Made by a program: the position numbers and the translations under genes
Shown: positions 57,130-64,000 of the stretch, piece after piece
Numbering within the stretch: position 1 is the stretch's first letter
How the letters are laid out: every line of letters begins with the position of its first letter
Assembly: GCA_003151335.1 (NCBI GenBank)
Contig: PLXE01000047.1
Span: 62,001-126,000, forward strand
Source: Acidobacteriaceae bacterium
GTDB taxonomy: Bacteria; Acidobacteriota; Terriglobia; Terriglobales; Acidobacteriaceae
DNA: 64,000 nt
Direction: 5' to 3'
The notes under the pieces: generated by a model
Databases searched by the model: none
Told to the model about the DNA's origin: nothing
The model's input: the letters and a program-made list of their open reading frames with translations, nothing else

Positions 57130-57606
57130 CTAAGACGCGCTTGCGGATGCTGCCACCAAGTCGTCCACCTCGACGCCCATGTGACGCAGATGGTGCAGCA
57201 TGTGGTCCACATAATCGTCGAAAACGAACTGCAGCGTCAGCGGCGCGGAATCGGCGATGGTGCAAGTCCGCGGCCAGGCCGAATCCGGTACAGCTTCGGC
57301 AGCGGCCAGCAACTGGCGATTGAGGCCCGCCCAGATCGCAATCAATGAAGGCCAGTCCCGGTCCTGATAGCGATGCAATGCCACCCACTGATCGCCGTCA
57401 TATGTGGGCATGGCTGGATTGTTCTCTAGCTGAGCGCGGACAATTCTCTGGTGATTATTGGCAGCGGAGTCCAGCAGATGCCCAAGCTCTTCTTTGATCG
57501 ACCACTCCGAGGATGAACGTTTGCGTTGGACTTGATCGTCGGACAGATTTGTCAAGCGAGCGGGCAACTGATCGACGAGGGTACGCAGCAGCAACAAGCT
57601 TTGCAT
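57130..57606 (-). CDS. DinB superfamily protein
   Basis: A 158-aa four-helix DinB/YfiT-like protein. Putative metal-binding histidines lie in IKEELGHLLDSAANNHQRI (about residues 37-55) and DYVDHMLHHLRHMG (about 130-143), the expected DinB_2 spacing. Members include thiol transferases and hydrolases; no specific reaction can be named. It lies downstream of the RpiB-AraC regulator on the same strand, 63 nt away. Confidence 0.85.
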   Translation of the reverse strand: MQSLLLLRTLVDQLPARLTNLSDDQVQRKRSSSEWSIKEELGHLLDSAANNHQRIVRAQLENNPAMPTYDGDQWVALHRYQDRDWPSLIAIWAGLNRQLLAAAEAVPDSAWPRTCTIADSAPLTLQFVFDDYVDHMLHHLRHMGVEVDDLVAASASAS

Positions 57607-57669
57607 TCGGACACTCCCTACAACCGTTATTGTGATCTACCGGCGTTGACTGGTGAAACTGGTGTCCAG

Positions 57670-58485
57670 CTAGGCTGCTCGCGCAGACTTCTGCTGTGGT
57701 GTCTGGTTCAGGTCCTGTGCCAAGGTGTCCATCGGTGCGGCTGCCTGATGGACCTCGCGATAGTGCTTGGGGGTGACCCCCGCGAGCCGGCGAAACACGC
57801 TGGTGAAGTGGCTCTGGGTTTCGAAACCCACGTGGGTGGCGACCTCGGCCAATGGGGTTTCGCCCTCGCGCAATATTTCCTGGGCGCGCTCCACCCGCTG
57901 CCGCATAACGTATTGGTGCGGGGTGGTGCCGGTGCTCAGCTTGAACAGCTTAGAGAAGTAATACTGGCTCATACCTACGACCTGCGCCAAGTCCGCCACC
58001 GCCAGTTCCTGGGTAATGTTCTCGCGTACGTGGGAAAACACGCGCTGCAAACGGCGAGGCGGCAAGCCGCCGACCACCTCCACCGGTGCGAGGGTCGCGC
58101 CCAGGTATGCATCCACCACCTCCTGCGCACGGTCCTGCTCCAGCGAATGAAGGGCCAGCACCAGCACGTTCATCCCTTCCGCTTTGGCGCCGATGGCCGC
58201 CGAATAGGCGTCATGGCACGCGGCGGCCCGAATACCCGGTACCCGGTTCGCGGCCACGGAAGCGCCGACCACTCGACTGGTGATGATGATGCCGCGTTCC
58301 GCATTGTGGCGCAGCACCAACATGGCCACCTGCTCGGCGTAGTCGGCACTGCTGTGCGGCTGGACCGCCGAGGTCGCATCCGTTACCTCATGTCCCGCTT
58401 CCACTAGCTTTGCCGCGATTTGCTCTTTAGCTGCCTGGCCTGCTTGATCGGATCCGATTGCGATGCGCACTTTGCTCTCCTCCAT
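57670..58485 (-). CDS. RpiB-like domain fused to AraC-type DNA-binding domain
   Basis: A 271-aa protein. Residues 5-132 align by eye with ribose-5-phosphate isomerase B: RIAIGSDQAGQAAKEQIAAK, GASVAANRVPGIRAAACHDA and NVLVLALHSLE. The catalytic Cys of LICGSGVG is replaced (IITSRVVG; T69), the loop glycines are lost, DHAG has become DQAG, and the active-site His segment (EHDNMNVL in the neighbour) reads AEGMNVL. Residues about 143-245 form an AraC domain with two HTHs (LAVADLAQVVGMSQYYFSKL and PLAEVATHVGFETQSHFTSV). The likely role is sugar-phosphate sensing and transcription control. It is divergent from the GH15-tkt-rpiB operon. Confidence 0.88.
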   Translation of the reverse strand: MEESKVRIAIGSDQAGQAAKEQIAAKLVEAGHEVTDATSAVQPHSSADYAEQVAMLVLRHNAERGIIITSRVVGASVAANRVPGIRAAACHDAYSAAIGAKAEGMNVLVLALHSLEQDRAQEVVDAYLGATLAPVEVVGGLPPRRLQRVFSHVRENITQELAVADLAQVVGMSQYYFSKLFKLSTGTTPHQYVMRQRVERAQEILREGETPLAEVATHVGFETQSHFTSVFRRLAGVTPKHYREVHQAAAPMDTLAQDLNQTPQQKSARAA

Positions 58486-58964
58486 TGGTCAAACTGGTTT
58501 TGACTCGCCGTACCGGCGAGCACGGAAAACAGGGAGCGTTGGCCGGTCGCACCCACGGGTTGTTCCCATAAACATTCCTGCAAACCCCCTCAATGGTTCC
58601 GACAATGTGGCTGGATCTCGCCCTGTACATAAGCGAACTTCGCGGTTGTACACGCCGTTCCATAGGCTGCAATGGTCATAACCCAACATCGACCGATGAC
58701 ACGGTTACCTTGATTATTGGATGCGCAAGAAACAGTGCGTGCGTCCCGCGACACAACGTTCTGCGAAGAAATACGGTTAATGGTTCCACCCCAGCGAGGC
58801 ACTTGGGAAGCGCCTTTTCTGATTCGTAATGATATCAAGTACAAGCGCCACCAGGCCACCGCCGGCACCCTTCATTTCGGATTTACAATTATTTACAATC
58901 CGCGGTTCCTTACGCGAATACTCGCCGCTCGCGATACACTGCGGAAACGGTAAAGCTCAGGGCG
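58486..58964. promoter_or_regulatory. Long divergent control region
   Basis: These 479 nt lie between the divergent RpiB-AraC gene and the GH15-tkt-rpiB operon and contain no convincing gene. AATGGTTCC occurs at 58592-58600 and 58779-58787. Two direct copies in a region controlled by an AraC protein are worth noting, though the motif is short. No -35/-10 pair was assigned. Confidence 0.4.
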
Positions 58965-61430
58965 ATGCCTGACAATCCGAGAATGTCAAACGTTATGATC
59001 GGCAAGAATCCAGCGCCCGGCGGACCGGGCATCGTGCCTCGCTGGACGCGAGGAGCTAAAGAAGCTGTGGGAACGGCATACGCGGTTTCCAGTCGCGTCT
59101 GGTACACCATGGCCGGCGGGGTGATCACCGAAGTCTATTACCCCACCATTGACACGCCGCAAATTCGCGACCTGCAATTTCTGGTGACTGATGGCGAAAC
59201 GTTCTTCCACGATGAGCGCCGGCACATGGTCACCCACCTGGACTGCTTCGGCTCGTTCGGCCTGGGTTTCAAGGTCACCAACACGGACCCGGATGGGCGC
59301 TACTCCATTGAGAAGGTGATCATCGGCGATCCGCACCTGAGCTGCCTGCTGGTGCATACAAAATTCAATGTCGCGCCCGAGTGGCAAGGACGGCTGCAGC
59401 TCTTCGTTCTGTGCGCTCCTCACTTGCAGATCGGCGGTTATCACAACAATGGGTTGGTGATGAAGGAGCGAGGGCGAAGGTTCCTGATGGCCTATCGCGA
59501 TGATGCCTTCCTGGCAATTGCGGCCACGGCGCATTTCTGCAAGGCATCGTGCGGATACGTAGGCGTGAACGATGGCTGGACGGACTTGTCCAATAACTTC
59601 GAAATGAATTGGGAATACGACGCCGCGTTGGATGGCAATATCGCGCTCACCGCTGAAATCGATCTCTCTCGCGGCACCGAGTTTACCCTCGGCGTCGGTT
59701 TCGGCCACACCGGCCACCATGCTGGCGCCACCCTGTTTCAGTCGCTGAGCATCCCGTTCGATCTAGCTCTAAACAACTTCCTCGATCAGTGGCAGCGCAC
59801 CAGCAAGCGTCTCGCCTTGATGGACAAGTTTGACCAGCGCGAGTCGTCGCTGTTCGCCCGCAGCGTTAACCTGTTGCTCGCCCACGAGGACAAGGTCTAT
59901 CCCGGGGCCATGATCGCCAGTTTGAGCATACCCTGGGGAGAAGACCGAAGCGACGACGACCTTGGCGGCTATCACCTGGTATGGACGCGTGACTTGGTGA
60001 ATGCCGCGACCGCATTGCTCGCCGTGGGCGACACCACGACTCCGCTGCGCGCTTTGATTTATCTCGCCATCACGCAACGCGAGGATGGCGGCTTCTATCA
60101 GAATTTTTGGATTGACGGGCGGCCTTTCTGGACCGGGGTACAGCTCGACGAAGTCTCCTTCCCCATCATGCTGGCGTGGCGACTGTGGAAAGCCAACGCT
60201 CTCGGCAACTTCGATCCCTACGTCACCGTGGTTCGTGCTTGTGGCTATCTGATTTGCGAAGGGCCGGCGACGCCCCAGGAACGCTGGGAGGAAGCCGCAG
60301 GCTATTCCCCGTCTACACTGGCCAGCAACATTGCGGCCCTGATCTGCGCGGCAGAGTTCATCGAGGACCACGGCGACAAAGGTAGCGCTGAGTTTGTACG
60401 CGCCTACGCCGACTTCCTTGAGTCGCACGTCGAGAAGTGGACCGTCACTAATCAAGGAACGTTGGCGCCCGGCATCGCGCGGCACTATATTCGCATCAAC
60501 CCAGCCAACAGCTCGCAGGGCGATCGCGGCGATGAGGACCCCGACGCTGGCGAGCTGGTGCTGGCCAATCAGCGTCCCGGCGATCGCTACCGGTATCCAG
60601 CCAACCAAATCGTCGATCCGGGCTTCCTCGAATTGGTGCGCTTCGGCATCCGTAAGGCTGGCGATCCTCTCGTCGAGGACTCCTTGAAAGTCGTGGATGC
60701 GGTGTTGAAGGTGGATACCCCCAAGGGGCCATGCTGGAAGCGCTACAACCACGATGGATACGGGCAGCGCGAGGATGGCGAGTCGTTTGACAACTGGGGC
60801 GTGGGACGCCCGTGGCCGTTGCTGACCGGCGAGCGTGCCACCTACGAACTGGCCGCGGGCCGCAACGTCGATCTTTACTTGCGAGCCATCGAGAATTTCA
60901 CTACCGGCATCGGGCTCATTCCGGAACAGATTTGGGATGGCCCGGACATGCCCGACAAGTTCTTGACCCGCGGGGGCGCGACCGGAGCGGCCATTCCTTT
61001 GATGTGGGCGCACTCTGAGTATGTAAAATTATTGCGCTCAGTTGTGGACAATCGGCTGTTCGACTTGATCGACCCAGTGGCTGAGCGATATCGCAACGAT
61101 AAGCCGCGCCGGATAATCGAAGTATGGAAGATGAATCGGCAAGTCCGTGCAGTTCCCGCCGGAGGTTTGCTGCGGGTGCAGGCCTCTTCTCCATTTATGC
61201 TGCATTGGAGTAACGACGAGTGGAAGACGGTGCAGGAAACAGCGTCCACGCCGACTGCGGTGGGAGTGGAGTACGCGAACATCGAGGTTGCGCCCTCGCA
61301 AACGACTCCGTTGCAGTTCACTTTTTTCTGGCGGCAGGAGAGCGAGTGGCAAGGGGCCAATTATCAGGTTAACGTTCAACCAGCAATACAAACTGTTATA
61401 GATACCGGAAAGGCGGCAACGGGTGAGTAG
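58965..61430 (+). CDS. Glycoside hydrolase family 15 (glucoamylase-like)
   Basis: An 821-aa protein that would release glucose from alpha-glucans or related glucosides. The N-terminal beta-sandwich ([39 protein letters not shown]) is followed by an (alpha/alpha)6 barrel. The general acid is probably E442 in [13 protein letters not shown], and the base E654 in [11 protein letters not shown]-terminal beta domain ends the protein. No signal peptide is visible, so it should act in the cytoplasm. MSNVMIGKN at 58983 is an alternative start. Its end overlaps tkt by 8 nt. Confidence 0.9.
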
Positions 61431-63543
61431 CCAAGCGGAAGTCACCGCACCAGGAAACGAGCCGGCGAGCGCGAAGGGGATGGCAACCACTATCGCGGTG
61501 GGCCCCAAAGACGGGTTCGACAACGAAACGTTGGAGCAGCGTCAGCTCAACTGCCTGTGCATCAACACCATTCGTACGCTCTCCATGGATGCGGTGCAGA
61601 AGGCCAACAGCGGACATCCGGGAGCTCCCATGGCGCTGGCGCCGCTGGCGTTTACGCTGTGGAACCGCTATCTGCGTCACAATCCCAGAAATCCGCAGTG
61701 GCCTGGCCGCGACCGCTTCATTCTCTCCAATGGGCACGCCTGCATGCTGCTCTACTCCATGTTGTACCTGACGGGCTACGATCTTTCGCTCGACGATATC
61801 AAGCAGTTCCGGCAATGGGGATCCAAGACCCCGGGACACCCGGAGTACGGAGTGGTCCCGGGAGCGGAAGCCACCACGGGCCCGTTGGGCCAGGGTGTCA
61901 GCAATTCGGTCGGCATGGCCATTGCCCAGCGCTGGCTGGCCTCGCAGTTCAACAAAGATGGCCACGACATTTTCGACTACCGGGTTTACGCTTTTTGCGG
62001 CGACGGCGATCTGATGGAGGGCGTGAGCAATGAGGCCGCCTCCATCGCCGGTCATCTTGGACTCTCCAACCTCATCTGGTTCTACGACAACAACCACATC
62101 ACCATCGAGGGCAATACCTCGCTCGCCTTCAGCGATGACGTTGGCACGCGCTTCCTCGGCTGGCACTGGAACGTGCAGCACGTGAGCAACGTCAACGATC
62201 TTGCGCAGGTGGATCGCGCCATTCAGACCGCGCTGCAAGAGACTGACCGCCCGTCGCTGATCATCGTTGACACCCACATCGCCTATGGCTCCCCCCATCG
62301 CCAGGACACCAAGGAGGCGCATGGCGAGCCGCTCGGCGCAGAAGAGGTCCGCCTCACGAAAATGTTTTACGGCTGGCCGCCGGATGCGCAGTTTCTGGTT
62401 CCCGACGAGGCGAAGGCTTATATGGGCAAGGCCGTTGAGCGCGGCGCCCAGTGGGAGAAGGACTGGGACAGTCGTTACAACGCGTGGGCGAAAGAGTTCC
62501 CTGATCTCGCGAAGACCTGCCAGCAGATGCTCAATCAAGAATTGCCCGATGGCTGGGACAAGGACATTCCGTCGTTCCCTGCCGATGCCAAAGGCCTGGC
62601 CACACGAGAGTCGGGTGGCAAGGTGCTGAACGCCGTGGCGAAGAATGTGCTGTGGCTGCTGGGAGGCGCGGCTGACCTGGATCCTTCGACCAAGACCAAG
62701 CTTAGCGGCACCACAAGCTTCGAGAGGGGCAGCTATGCAGGCCGCAACTTCCATTTTGGCATTCGCGAGCACGCAATGGGCTCCATCGTCAACGGCATGG
62801 CGCTGTCAAAGCTGCGTCCATTTGGAGCTACCTTCTTTGTGTTTTCCGATTACATGCGGCCGGTACTTCGACTGGCGGCGATGATGGACCAGCCGGTCAT
62901 TTGGCTCTACACGCACGATTCCTTCTGCCTCGGCGAGGACGGGCCAACCCATCAGCCGATTGAACATCTCATGTCGTTGCGCGCCATTCCGCGGCTGCTG
63001 CTGATCCGGCCGGCGGACGCCAACGAGGTTGCCGAAGCCTGGCGCTACATCATGCCGTTAAAAACGCAACCGGTGGCGCTGGTGCTTACCCGCCAGGCCG
63101 TCCCCACCTTCGACCGCACCAAGTATGCGTCGGCGGCCGGACTGGCCAAGGGCGCATACATCATGGCGGATTCCGGCGGCACGCCCGACGTTATCTTGAT
63201 TGGGACCGGCTCCGAAGTGCAGCTCTGCGTAGGCGCTTATGAAAAGCTCACGGCCAACGGCGTAAAGGCGCGTGTGGTCTCCATGCCCTGCTGGAGACTG
63301 TTCGAAGAGCAGCCCGCCGAGTACAAGCTGCAAGTGCTCCCGCCCGAGGTGCGAGCTCGGGTGGCCGTCGAGGCGGGCACCGACCTGGGCTGGAAAGAAT
63401 ACGTCGGAAATGACGGATATGTTGTCGCCAGGACCGACTTTGGCGCATCTGCTCCTTATAAGGACCTATTGAAGCACTTCGGCTTCACGGTGGATGACGT
63501 CGTCGCGAAGGCCCAGGACGTCATGAAAAAAATCAAAGGTTAA
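61423..63543 (+). CDS. tkt: Transketolase (GTG start)
   Basis: A 706-aa ThDP enzyme of the non-oxidative pentose-phosphate pathway. The start is GTG, overlapping the GH15 gene. [54 protein letters not shown] and the ThDP motif CGDGDLMEG...NN are present. The pyrimidine domain has [16 protein letters not shown], and the C-terminal domain has [12 protein letters not shown]. The N-terminus carries about 35 extra residues. A member of the GH15-tkt-rpiB operon. Confidence 0.96.
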
Positions 63544-63558: not shown

Positions 63559-64000
63559 ATGAGCATGAAGATAGCCGTGGGCGCTGACCACGCCGGCGTT
63601 CCCCTCAACCAGACCGTCATTGCCGAACTCAAGCGGCTGGGGCATGAGGTGGTGGACTGCGGTACTCACGATCCCAGCAAGCCCGACGACTATCCCGATT
63701 ACGCGGAGGCGGTCGGCCGCGCTGTACTCGAAGGCAAGGCGGAGCGGGCGGTACTTATCTGCGGCAGCGGCGTGGGTGCATCGGTGGCAGCCAACAAGCT
63801 TCCCGGCATTCGTGCCGCGCTTTGCCACGATTGTTATTCGGCGCATCAGGGCGTCGAACATGACAATATGAATGTGCTCTGCCTGGGCTCGCGCGTCATC
63901 GGATCGGAACTGGCATTGGACTTGGTGCGTACGTTTCTGGGAGCGAAATTCAGCGGAGAAGAGCGCCACCGCCGACGACTGGCGAAAATTACTGCGCTCG
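63559..64000 (+). CDS. rpiB: Ribose-5-phosphate isomerase B (3' end outside window)
   Basis: The first 147 codons are visible, nearly the whole protein. It has an intact active site: GADHAG (D10, H11), catalytic C68 in LICGSGVGASVAANK, and H101 in EHDNMNVLCLGS. It interconverts ribulose-5-P and ribose-5-P, feeding transketolase encoded 15 nt upstream. ATG 63565 is an alternative start. It is the catalytic counterpart of the degenerate RpiB domain fused to AraC at 57670. Confidence 0.94.
   Translation, partial: MSMKIAVGADHAGVPLNQTVIAELKRLGHEVVDCGTHDPSKPDDYPDYAEAVGRAVLEGKAERAVLICGSGVGASVAANKLPGIRAALCHDCYSAHQGVEHDNMNVLCLGSRVIGSELALDLVRTFLGAKFSGEERHRRRLAKITAL

Follow-up and report, generated by a model that had tools for sequence, protein, structure and literature searches.

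Does a gene that joins the fold of an isomerase, RpiB, to the DNA-binding domain of an AraC-type regulator encode an enzyme, a sensor, or neither? We analyzed such a fusion in a stretch of 64,000 nucleotides from an Acidobacteriaceae genome (hereafter the window; Table 1). A scan of a GTDB-based contig collection returned 12 loci. Eight of these (L004-L011) encode a full-length or nearly full-length relative, 69-93% identical to the window's fusion and all from acidobacterial metagenome-assembled genomes, and the other four match the AraC part only or mainly. The match at L006 begins at residue 45, behind a masked stretch, so that some N-terminal positions are readable in eight of the nine copies.

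The open frame is uninterrupted over 271 codons (57670-58485, minus strand). The preliminary description of this DNA had taken all 271 codons as a gene for an RpiB-like domain followed by a two-HTH AraC domain. The frame and both domains stand, and the start is probably a different one. The window's ATG at 58485 overlaps a GGAGGAG motif, and an in-frame GTG follows at 58470. All eight readable copies (L006 is masked here) have GTG at this codon, preceded by a purine-rich sequence that resembles a Shine-Dalgarno site. Two of these copies (window, L008) carry the upstream ATG in frame, three have it out of frame (L004, L005, L011) and three lack it (L007, L009, L010). Translation from GTG 58470 starts as RpiB proteins do, and this codon is probably the true start, giving a protein of 266 amino acids. 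Directly behind the regulator lies a DinB_2-family gene (57130-57606, minus strand) that is matched in L004, L005 and L006 and not at the loci of the other five relatives.

Table 1. Features of the regulator locus and the divergent gene cluster (window positions).
Feature	Position	Strand	Remark
RpiB-AraC fusion regulator, likely CDS	57670..58470	-	GTG 58470 start, 266 aa; ATG frame reaches 58485
AraC linker and two-HTH DNA-binding domain	57733..58086	-	residues 129-246 from GTG
RpiB/LacAB-like domain, active site dismantled	58081..58470	-	residues 1-130 from GTG
Candidate operator, two TTTACAAT words spaced 10 bp (repeat TTTACAATTATTTACAAT)	58882..58899	+	upstream of GH15
GCG[AG]TACACT, -10-like	58931..58940	+	conserved between fusion and GH15
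GH15 glucoamylase/glucodextranase-like gene	58965..61430	+	first gene of divergent cluster
Transketolase	61423..63543	+	in probable target operon
Catalytic-type RpiB	63565..64000, runs past window end	+	DH, CGSG, His99 and Arg133/Arg137 positions intact

The two-domain make-up is well supported by profile searches. Pfam places LacAB_rpiB (PF02502) at residues 8-131 (95.7 bits against a cut-off of 24.7) and HTH_18 (PF12833) at residues 166-244 (84.6 bits against 33.6); HTH_AraC scores 78.5 bits, and the AraC HTH matches lie at residues 154-193 and 166-244. Because both domain scores are far above their cut-offs, chance is excluded as the source of this architecture. The fusion misses the cut-off of the NCBIfam rpiB equivalog TIGR01120 (87 bits; cut-off 138.65). 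In the Pfam search, which at E values up to 1 matched three families, we found neither an AraC_binding cupin sensor nor a SorC/DeoR-type or SIS effector domain. Among solved structures, the relatives of the first half are RpiBs (best 1nn4_A, 1.6e-17) and those of the second half are AraC-type domains (best 3oio_A, 3.8e-13). An AlphaFold2 model built from 15 rows predicts two confident folds (pLDDT 82.1, pTM 0.54), with values below 50 in the linker (131-133) and the tail (246-266) and an average of 60 over residues 31-40. The model aligns with RpiB crystal structures (1usl_A, Z 21.5, 143 residues, 3.5 Å; 3s5p_B, Z 21.5, 122 residues, 1.4 Å) and with the DNA-binding domain of the AraC-type protein AdpA (3w6v_A, Z 17.1, 109 residues, 1.5 Å), and a second model, of the 67% identical L010 relative, repeats the layout (pLDDT 85.9, pTM 0.53). 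Given the low pTM of both models, the placement of the halves relative to each other is uncertain. A conserved linker, PVEVVGGLPPRR, occupies the place of the RpiB C-terminal helix. No entry described as an RpiB-AraC protein is among the best 50 matches listed per fold search, a list that is no test of absence. Both the profile searches and the structure prediction thus bear out the architecture first read from the sequence.

We next compared the active site of the nine fusions with that of 31 RpiBs (E. coli and 30 acidobacterial copies; E. coli numbering). The comparison copies came from similarity searches and were no random draw; 60 RpiB-type frames were found, and 21 were dropped as repeats of the same genes. 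The catalytic Cys66 is present in 31/31 RpiBs and in none of the nine fusions (Thr in five, Ser in four), and His10 in 31/31 RpiBs and in none of the eight readable fusions (Gln in five, Glu in three). Also missing from all nine fusions are Asp42 and Tyr43 (each 31/31 RpiBs), Pro44 (30/31), Gly67 (26/31), Ser/Thr68 (31/31; Arg in the nine fusions), His99 (30/31) and Arg110 (25/31; His in the nine fusions). Gly69, found in 31/31 RpiBs, is kept in two of nine fusions. Arg133 (31/31 RpiBs, 0/9 fusions) is less sure, as the position lies behind an alignment gap and in the tail of E. coli RpiB. Asp9 (8/8), Gly71 (9/9) and Asn103 (9/9) are retained. The preliminary description had listed the Cys, the glycines of the anion-hole loop and the His among the changes. 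In the window, Thr replaces Cys66, Ser replaces Gly67, Val replaces Gly69 and Gln replaces His10, in agreement with that list; the loop residue Gly71, however, is kept, and so is Asp9. None of the nine copies is a homolog with an intact catalytic Cys, in line with the non-catalytic reading put forward there.

Published mutants help to weigh these losses. According to PMC4783025, Leishmania RpiB loses all activity with C69S, H102N or D45N (positions 66, 99 and 42 here), while activity is still detectable with H11N, Y46F, P47A or H138N, E. coli RpiB H99N is slowed 26-fold and not dead, and the base of Mycobacterium tuberculosis RpiB is Glu75 instead of Cys. Not every residue lost in the fusion is therefore essential. 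The same paper has phosphate held by His11, Arg137 and Arg141 in the Leishmania enzyme. Since most of the phosphate-binding residues of RpiB (His10, Arg110 and Arg133) are lost, the ligand of the fusion may not be a sugar phosphate. A further phosphate arginine, Arg137, appeared to be kept as Arg140 in the linker and aligns in 9/9 fusions; we discounted it because AraC proteins without an RpiB half (L018, L019, L021, L026 and L043) also have Arg there. Judged from its residues, the RpiB half is in all likelihood non-catalytic.

In spite of these changes the RpiB half is under purifying selection. We estimated dN/dS by the Nei-Gojobori method on eight fusions (L006 was left out), with figures for 11 of the 28 pairs. 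Values range from 0.07 to 0.23 in the RpiB half and from 0.03 to 0.23 in the AraC half, and from 0 to 0.08 in the 12-residue linker where defined (3/11 pairs are undefined); dS exceeds 1 in most pairs with L007-L010, so the ratio is poorly fixed there. Five divergent fusions agree at 12 residues that none of the 31 RpiBs has (I62, R66, R76, A95, K96, E98, G99, L107, H108, L110, L127 and P129). Three of these, Arg66, Glu98 and His108, are charged, lie around the old pocket and are invariant in 9/9 fusions. Nine of the 12 fall within two residues of active-site positions (37/130 positions; p 0.0006), and we read this, with a test picked after the data had been seen, as a sign that the old pocket may have been rebuilt rather than merely decayed. 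A strict version that counts invariants exactly at the 15 active-site positions finds 3/12 and is not significant (p 0.14).

The strict result leaves some room for a different role, in which the RpiB-like half serves dimerization only and senses no ligand, with activity depending on expression level or on another signal. RpiB is called an obligate dimer in PMC3212906, and the loss of most phosphate-holding residues would fit as well. However, most of the fusion-specific invariants sit close to the old active site, among them the three charged residues found in every copy, and the linker is strongly conserved; we regard this explanation as unlikely, although it is the best of the alternatives.

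The idea of a trigger enzyme, a protein that regulates while it continues to act as an isomerase, perhaps on a different sugar phosphate, is much harder to reconcile with the data. The retained Asp9, Gly71 and Asn103, the Glu75 base in M. tuberculosis and the active Leishmania H11N, Y46F and P47A mutants speak for it. Against this, every copy lacks Cys66, His99, Asp42, Tyr43 and Pro44, every readable copy lacks His10, and the counterparts of three of these losses are the mutations that are dead in PMC4783025. Most of the same genomes also encode a separate isomerase. In the window's genome, PF02502 matches the fusion, the RpiB at 63565 and a third gene on contig C71, and RpiA has no match. The match on C71 is a second stand-alone RpiB (L001; 120261-120674, minus strand) whose active-site loop reads CSTG instead of CGSG. 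Five of the eight relatives have catalytic-type RpiBs and no RpiA match, and the genomes of L007 (99% complete) and L009 (71%) have RpiA and no PF02502 match besides the fusion. In the genome of L008 (74% complete) we found neither a further PF02502 match nor RpiA. Because the genomes of L008 and L009 are incomplete by these values, which were matched to the genomes by contig, absences there are weak. The tally is a catalytic-type RpiB in 6/9 genomes and RpiA in 2/9; with a separate RpiB or RpiA in 8/9, the fusion is apparently not the isomerase on which the cell relies, and we hold the trigger-enzyme explanation to be very improbable. In the genomes of L007 and L009, the RpiB enzyme has apparently been swapped for RpiA and the RpiB-like sensor kept.

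The latter genomes also bear on a third alternative, that the fusion might sense the RpiB enzyme itself through mixed dimers. LacA, which pairs with LacB, is a model for such dimers, and RpiB lies in the neighboring cluster in 6/9 genomes. Yet three of nine genomes (99%, 74% and 71% complete) have no other PF02502 match, and the fusion is under purifying selection there (omega of 0.08 for L008-L009 and 0.09 for L007-L008). As the fusion is kept where RpiB was not found, it has no apparent need of an RpiB enzyme as partner, and this analogy too seems to us highly doubtful.

The fusion is confined to a narrow group in our samples. A genus search found it in 9/9 genomes, the window's own included; contig numbers and positions identify the eight relatives from the contig scan with the other eight genomes of the genus, and the total count is nine, not 17. 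In a family sample (E 1e-60), the fusion occurs in 9/398 genomes and 1/79 genera, with 0/389 outside the genus. Among the matches listed for a phylum sample of 396 genomes, only the window's own spans both halves. Elsewhere, a fusion profile gave 0/378 genomes in the phylum of L012's genome (E 1e-32) and 0/378 in that of L014's genome (E 1e-30), and in the phylum of L015's genome 5/346 genomes matched (E 1e-30), all five with the AraC part only by their coordinates. These searches of other phyla scored the top 6-7 candidates per genome, had no positive control in those phyla and would miss the reverse domain order; the family search, with the same limit of six candidates, recovered nine positives. 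Six stretches of viral contigs matched a pattern and none encodes a relative. For plasmids, 105 records matched and none covers 80% of the query; the ten listed begin at residue 87 or 97 and match mainly the AraC part. That the gene is a product of chance, a pseudogene or an assembly artefact, as might be feared of a 121-contig draft with eight metagenome-assembled relatives, is next to inconceivable given its recurrence in eight further genomes, 9/9 in all, with a conserved reading frame and dN/dS well below 1, and the assembly error that the preliminary description had named as a possible objection falls away.

A tree built from 40 RpiB domains unites the nine fusions (100/100) at the end of a long stem (1.73) and places this clade inside no single RpiB lineage. 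Identity to acidobacterial RpiB matches is about 38-49%. Outside the fusions, the AraC part is best matched by L017, an ordinary AraC-type protein from the same family with 53% identity and a similar GGLPxxxL linker.

The neighboring genes point to a probable target. In the window and in 8/8 relatives, the fusion is divergent from a GH15 gene followed by a transketolase, and RpiB is inside that cluster in the window and in 5/8 relatives (6/9). On the contig the order is GH15, transketolase, RpiB, transaldolase-PGI, 6-phosphogluconate dehydrogenase, glucose-6-phosphate dehydrogenase and HAD phosphatase; from order and spacing we infer that this series forms one operon. The matches to transaldolase and glucose-6-phosphate isomerase lie in one open frame of 967 amino acids just right of the window (L046:26-2926). 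For comparison, we examined nine fusion-free GH15 loci of family members, eight of which ranked among the best matches when 60 genomes were searched (37 had a match, the window's own included). Transketolase adjoins GH15 in 7/9 of these loci and RpiB is there in 6/9, and the AraC part of the fusion was not found in the 12 stretches searched (E 1e-6). The cluster is thus more widespread than the regulator, as fusion-free copies of it occur in further genera of the family. By eye, the GH15 protein heading the cluster in several genera (window; L083, L105-L107, L110-L112) has no signal peptide. Such a protein at the head of the cluster suggests intracellular glucan breakdown that may feed the pentose phosphate pathway.

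Two elements stand out in the DNA upstream of GH15. The TTTACAATTATTTACAAT repeat is exact in five of nine fusion genomes (window, L004, L005, L006 and L011), has 3/16 mismatches in L010 and is not recognizable in L007, L008 and L009. Its 18-base pattern is expected 0.03 times in the window, and a 21-base form has one match in the window's genome at up to three mismatches, the candidate operator itself. In the 700 bases before GH15 in the nine fusion-free loci, the best match to the repeat has at least six mismatches of 16. A repeat finder run on 58486-58964 with a minimum of 10 gave nothing, the repeated word being 9 bases, and scans of 57600-59000 for sigma-70 promoters and terminators found nothing. 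The second element, GCG[AG]TACACT, occurs in 9/9 fusion genomes at 22-31 bases from the GH15 match in the window's near relatives, 76-220 in L008, L009 and L010 and about 780 in L007. As it also occurs in one of nine GH15 loci without the fusion (L083), it is perhaps a plain promoter (-10) element. Contacts of AraC-type domains with DNA often follow a 10-bp phase immediately before the -35 region, an arrangement that would suit activation.

Based on these data, we propose that the fusion is probably an AraC-type regulator dedicated to the divergent pentose-phosphate operon, and that it senses a pathway intermediate via its non-catalytic RpiB pocket. The predicted combination at the heart of the preliminary description, a non-catalytic RpiB fold with an AraC DNA-binding domain, is backed by sequence, by structure prediction, by its presence in nine genomes and the selection acting on it, and by an isomerase gene found separately in 8/9 of them; ligand sensing by the RpiB half is a prediction. 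The divergent pentose-phosphate cluster, with the catalytic-type RpiB that it usually includes, and the confinement to a single genus had escaped that description. The N-terminal half would be a retired RpiB with its active site remade as an effector pocket, and the C-terminal half an AraC/XylS DNA-binding domain. A pathway intermediate, probably a sugar phosphate, may bind in the altered pocket via the new Arg66, Glu98 and His108, and RpiB-type dimerization could bring two AraC domains together. The ligand-induced change would be relayed through the PVEVVGGLPPRR linker, and the fusion would bind the TTTACAAT direct repeat at 58882-58899, most likely activating the cluster. If this is true, it is a clear case of an enzyme turned into a sensor that serves the genes of its own pathway, and the functioning isomerase, its retired copy and the targets adjoin one another. 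Additionally, the group, confined to one genus, would be young enough that the steps may be traceable, and species without an RpiB enzyme that keep the sensor provide a natural control. The model also suggests that these Acidobacteria control their pentose phosphate pathway through a transcription regulator of its own.

The preliminary description knew of no characterized regulator with this arrangement; our survey of the open literature (titles and abstract openings) likewise gave no paper on an RpiB-AraC regulator. The principle of an enzyme fold as sensor is already known from SorC/DeoR and RpiR, and the RpiB fold in that role was not found in the open literature so surveyed. We see an even chance that the fusion represents one more independent case of a sugar-isomerase-type fold recruited as the sensor of a transcription factor, in which a non-catalytic RpiB pocket reads a pentose-phosphate intermediate, sets a whole operon and is kept in species that apparently swap RpiB for RpiA. 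With the RpiB/LacAB family (PF02502) the fusion has in common the fold, Asp9, Gly71 and Asn103; it lacks the catalytic Cys, His99 and most substrate contacts, has an AraC linker in place of the RpiB C-terminal helix and scores below the NCBIfam rpiB cut-off. With AraC/XylS regulators it has in common the two-HTH C-terminal domain and the GGLPxxxL-type linker, and it carries an RpiB fold where the common, though not obligatory, AraC_binding cupin sensor would be. The sensor of E. coli XylR is LacI-type, unlike the RpiB fold of the fusion. XylR nevertheless resembles the fusion in combining an AraC domain with a non-cupin sugar sensor (PDB 4fe4). RpiR-family regulators, which consist of a SIS domain and an N-terminal HTH, also use an isomerase-type fold as a phosphosugar sensor; the fusion differs in that no SIS domain was found in it. 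The NagB/RpiA fold differs from the RpiB fold. The effector domains of SorC/DeoR regulators share ancestry with NagB-type enzymes of the NagB/RpiA superfamily, and their active sites have become suited to binding intermediates of the pathway under control (PMC11229326). SorC/DeoR regulators have that fold and an N-terminal HTH, and they share with the fusion the reuse of a sugar-enzyme fold as a sensor.
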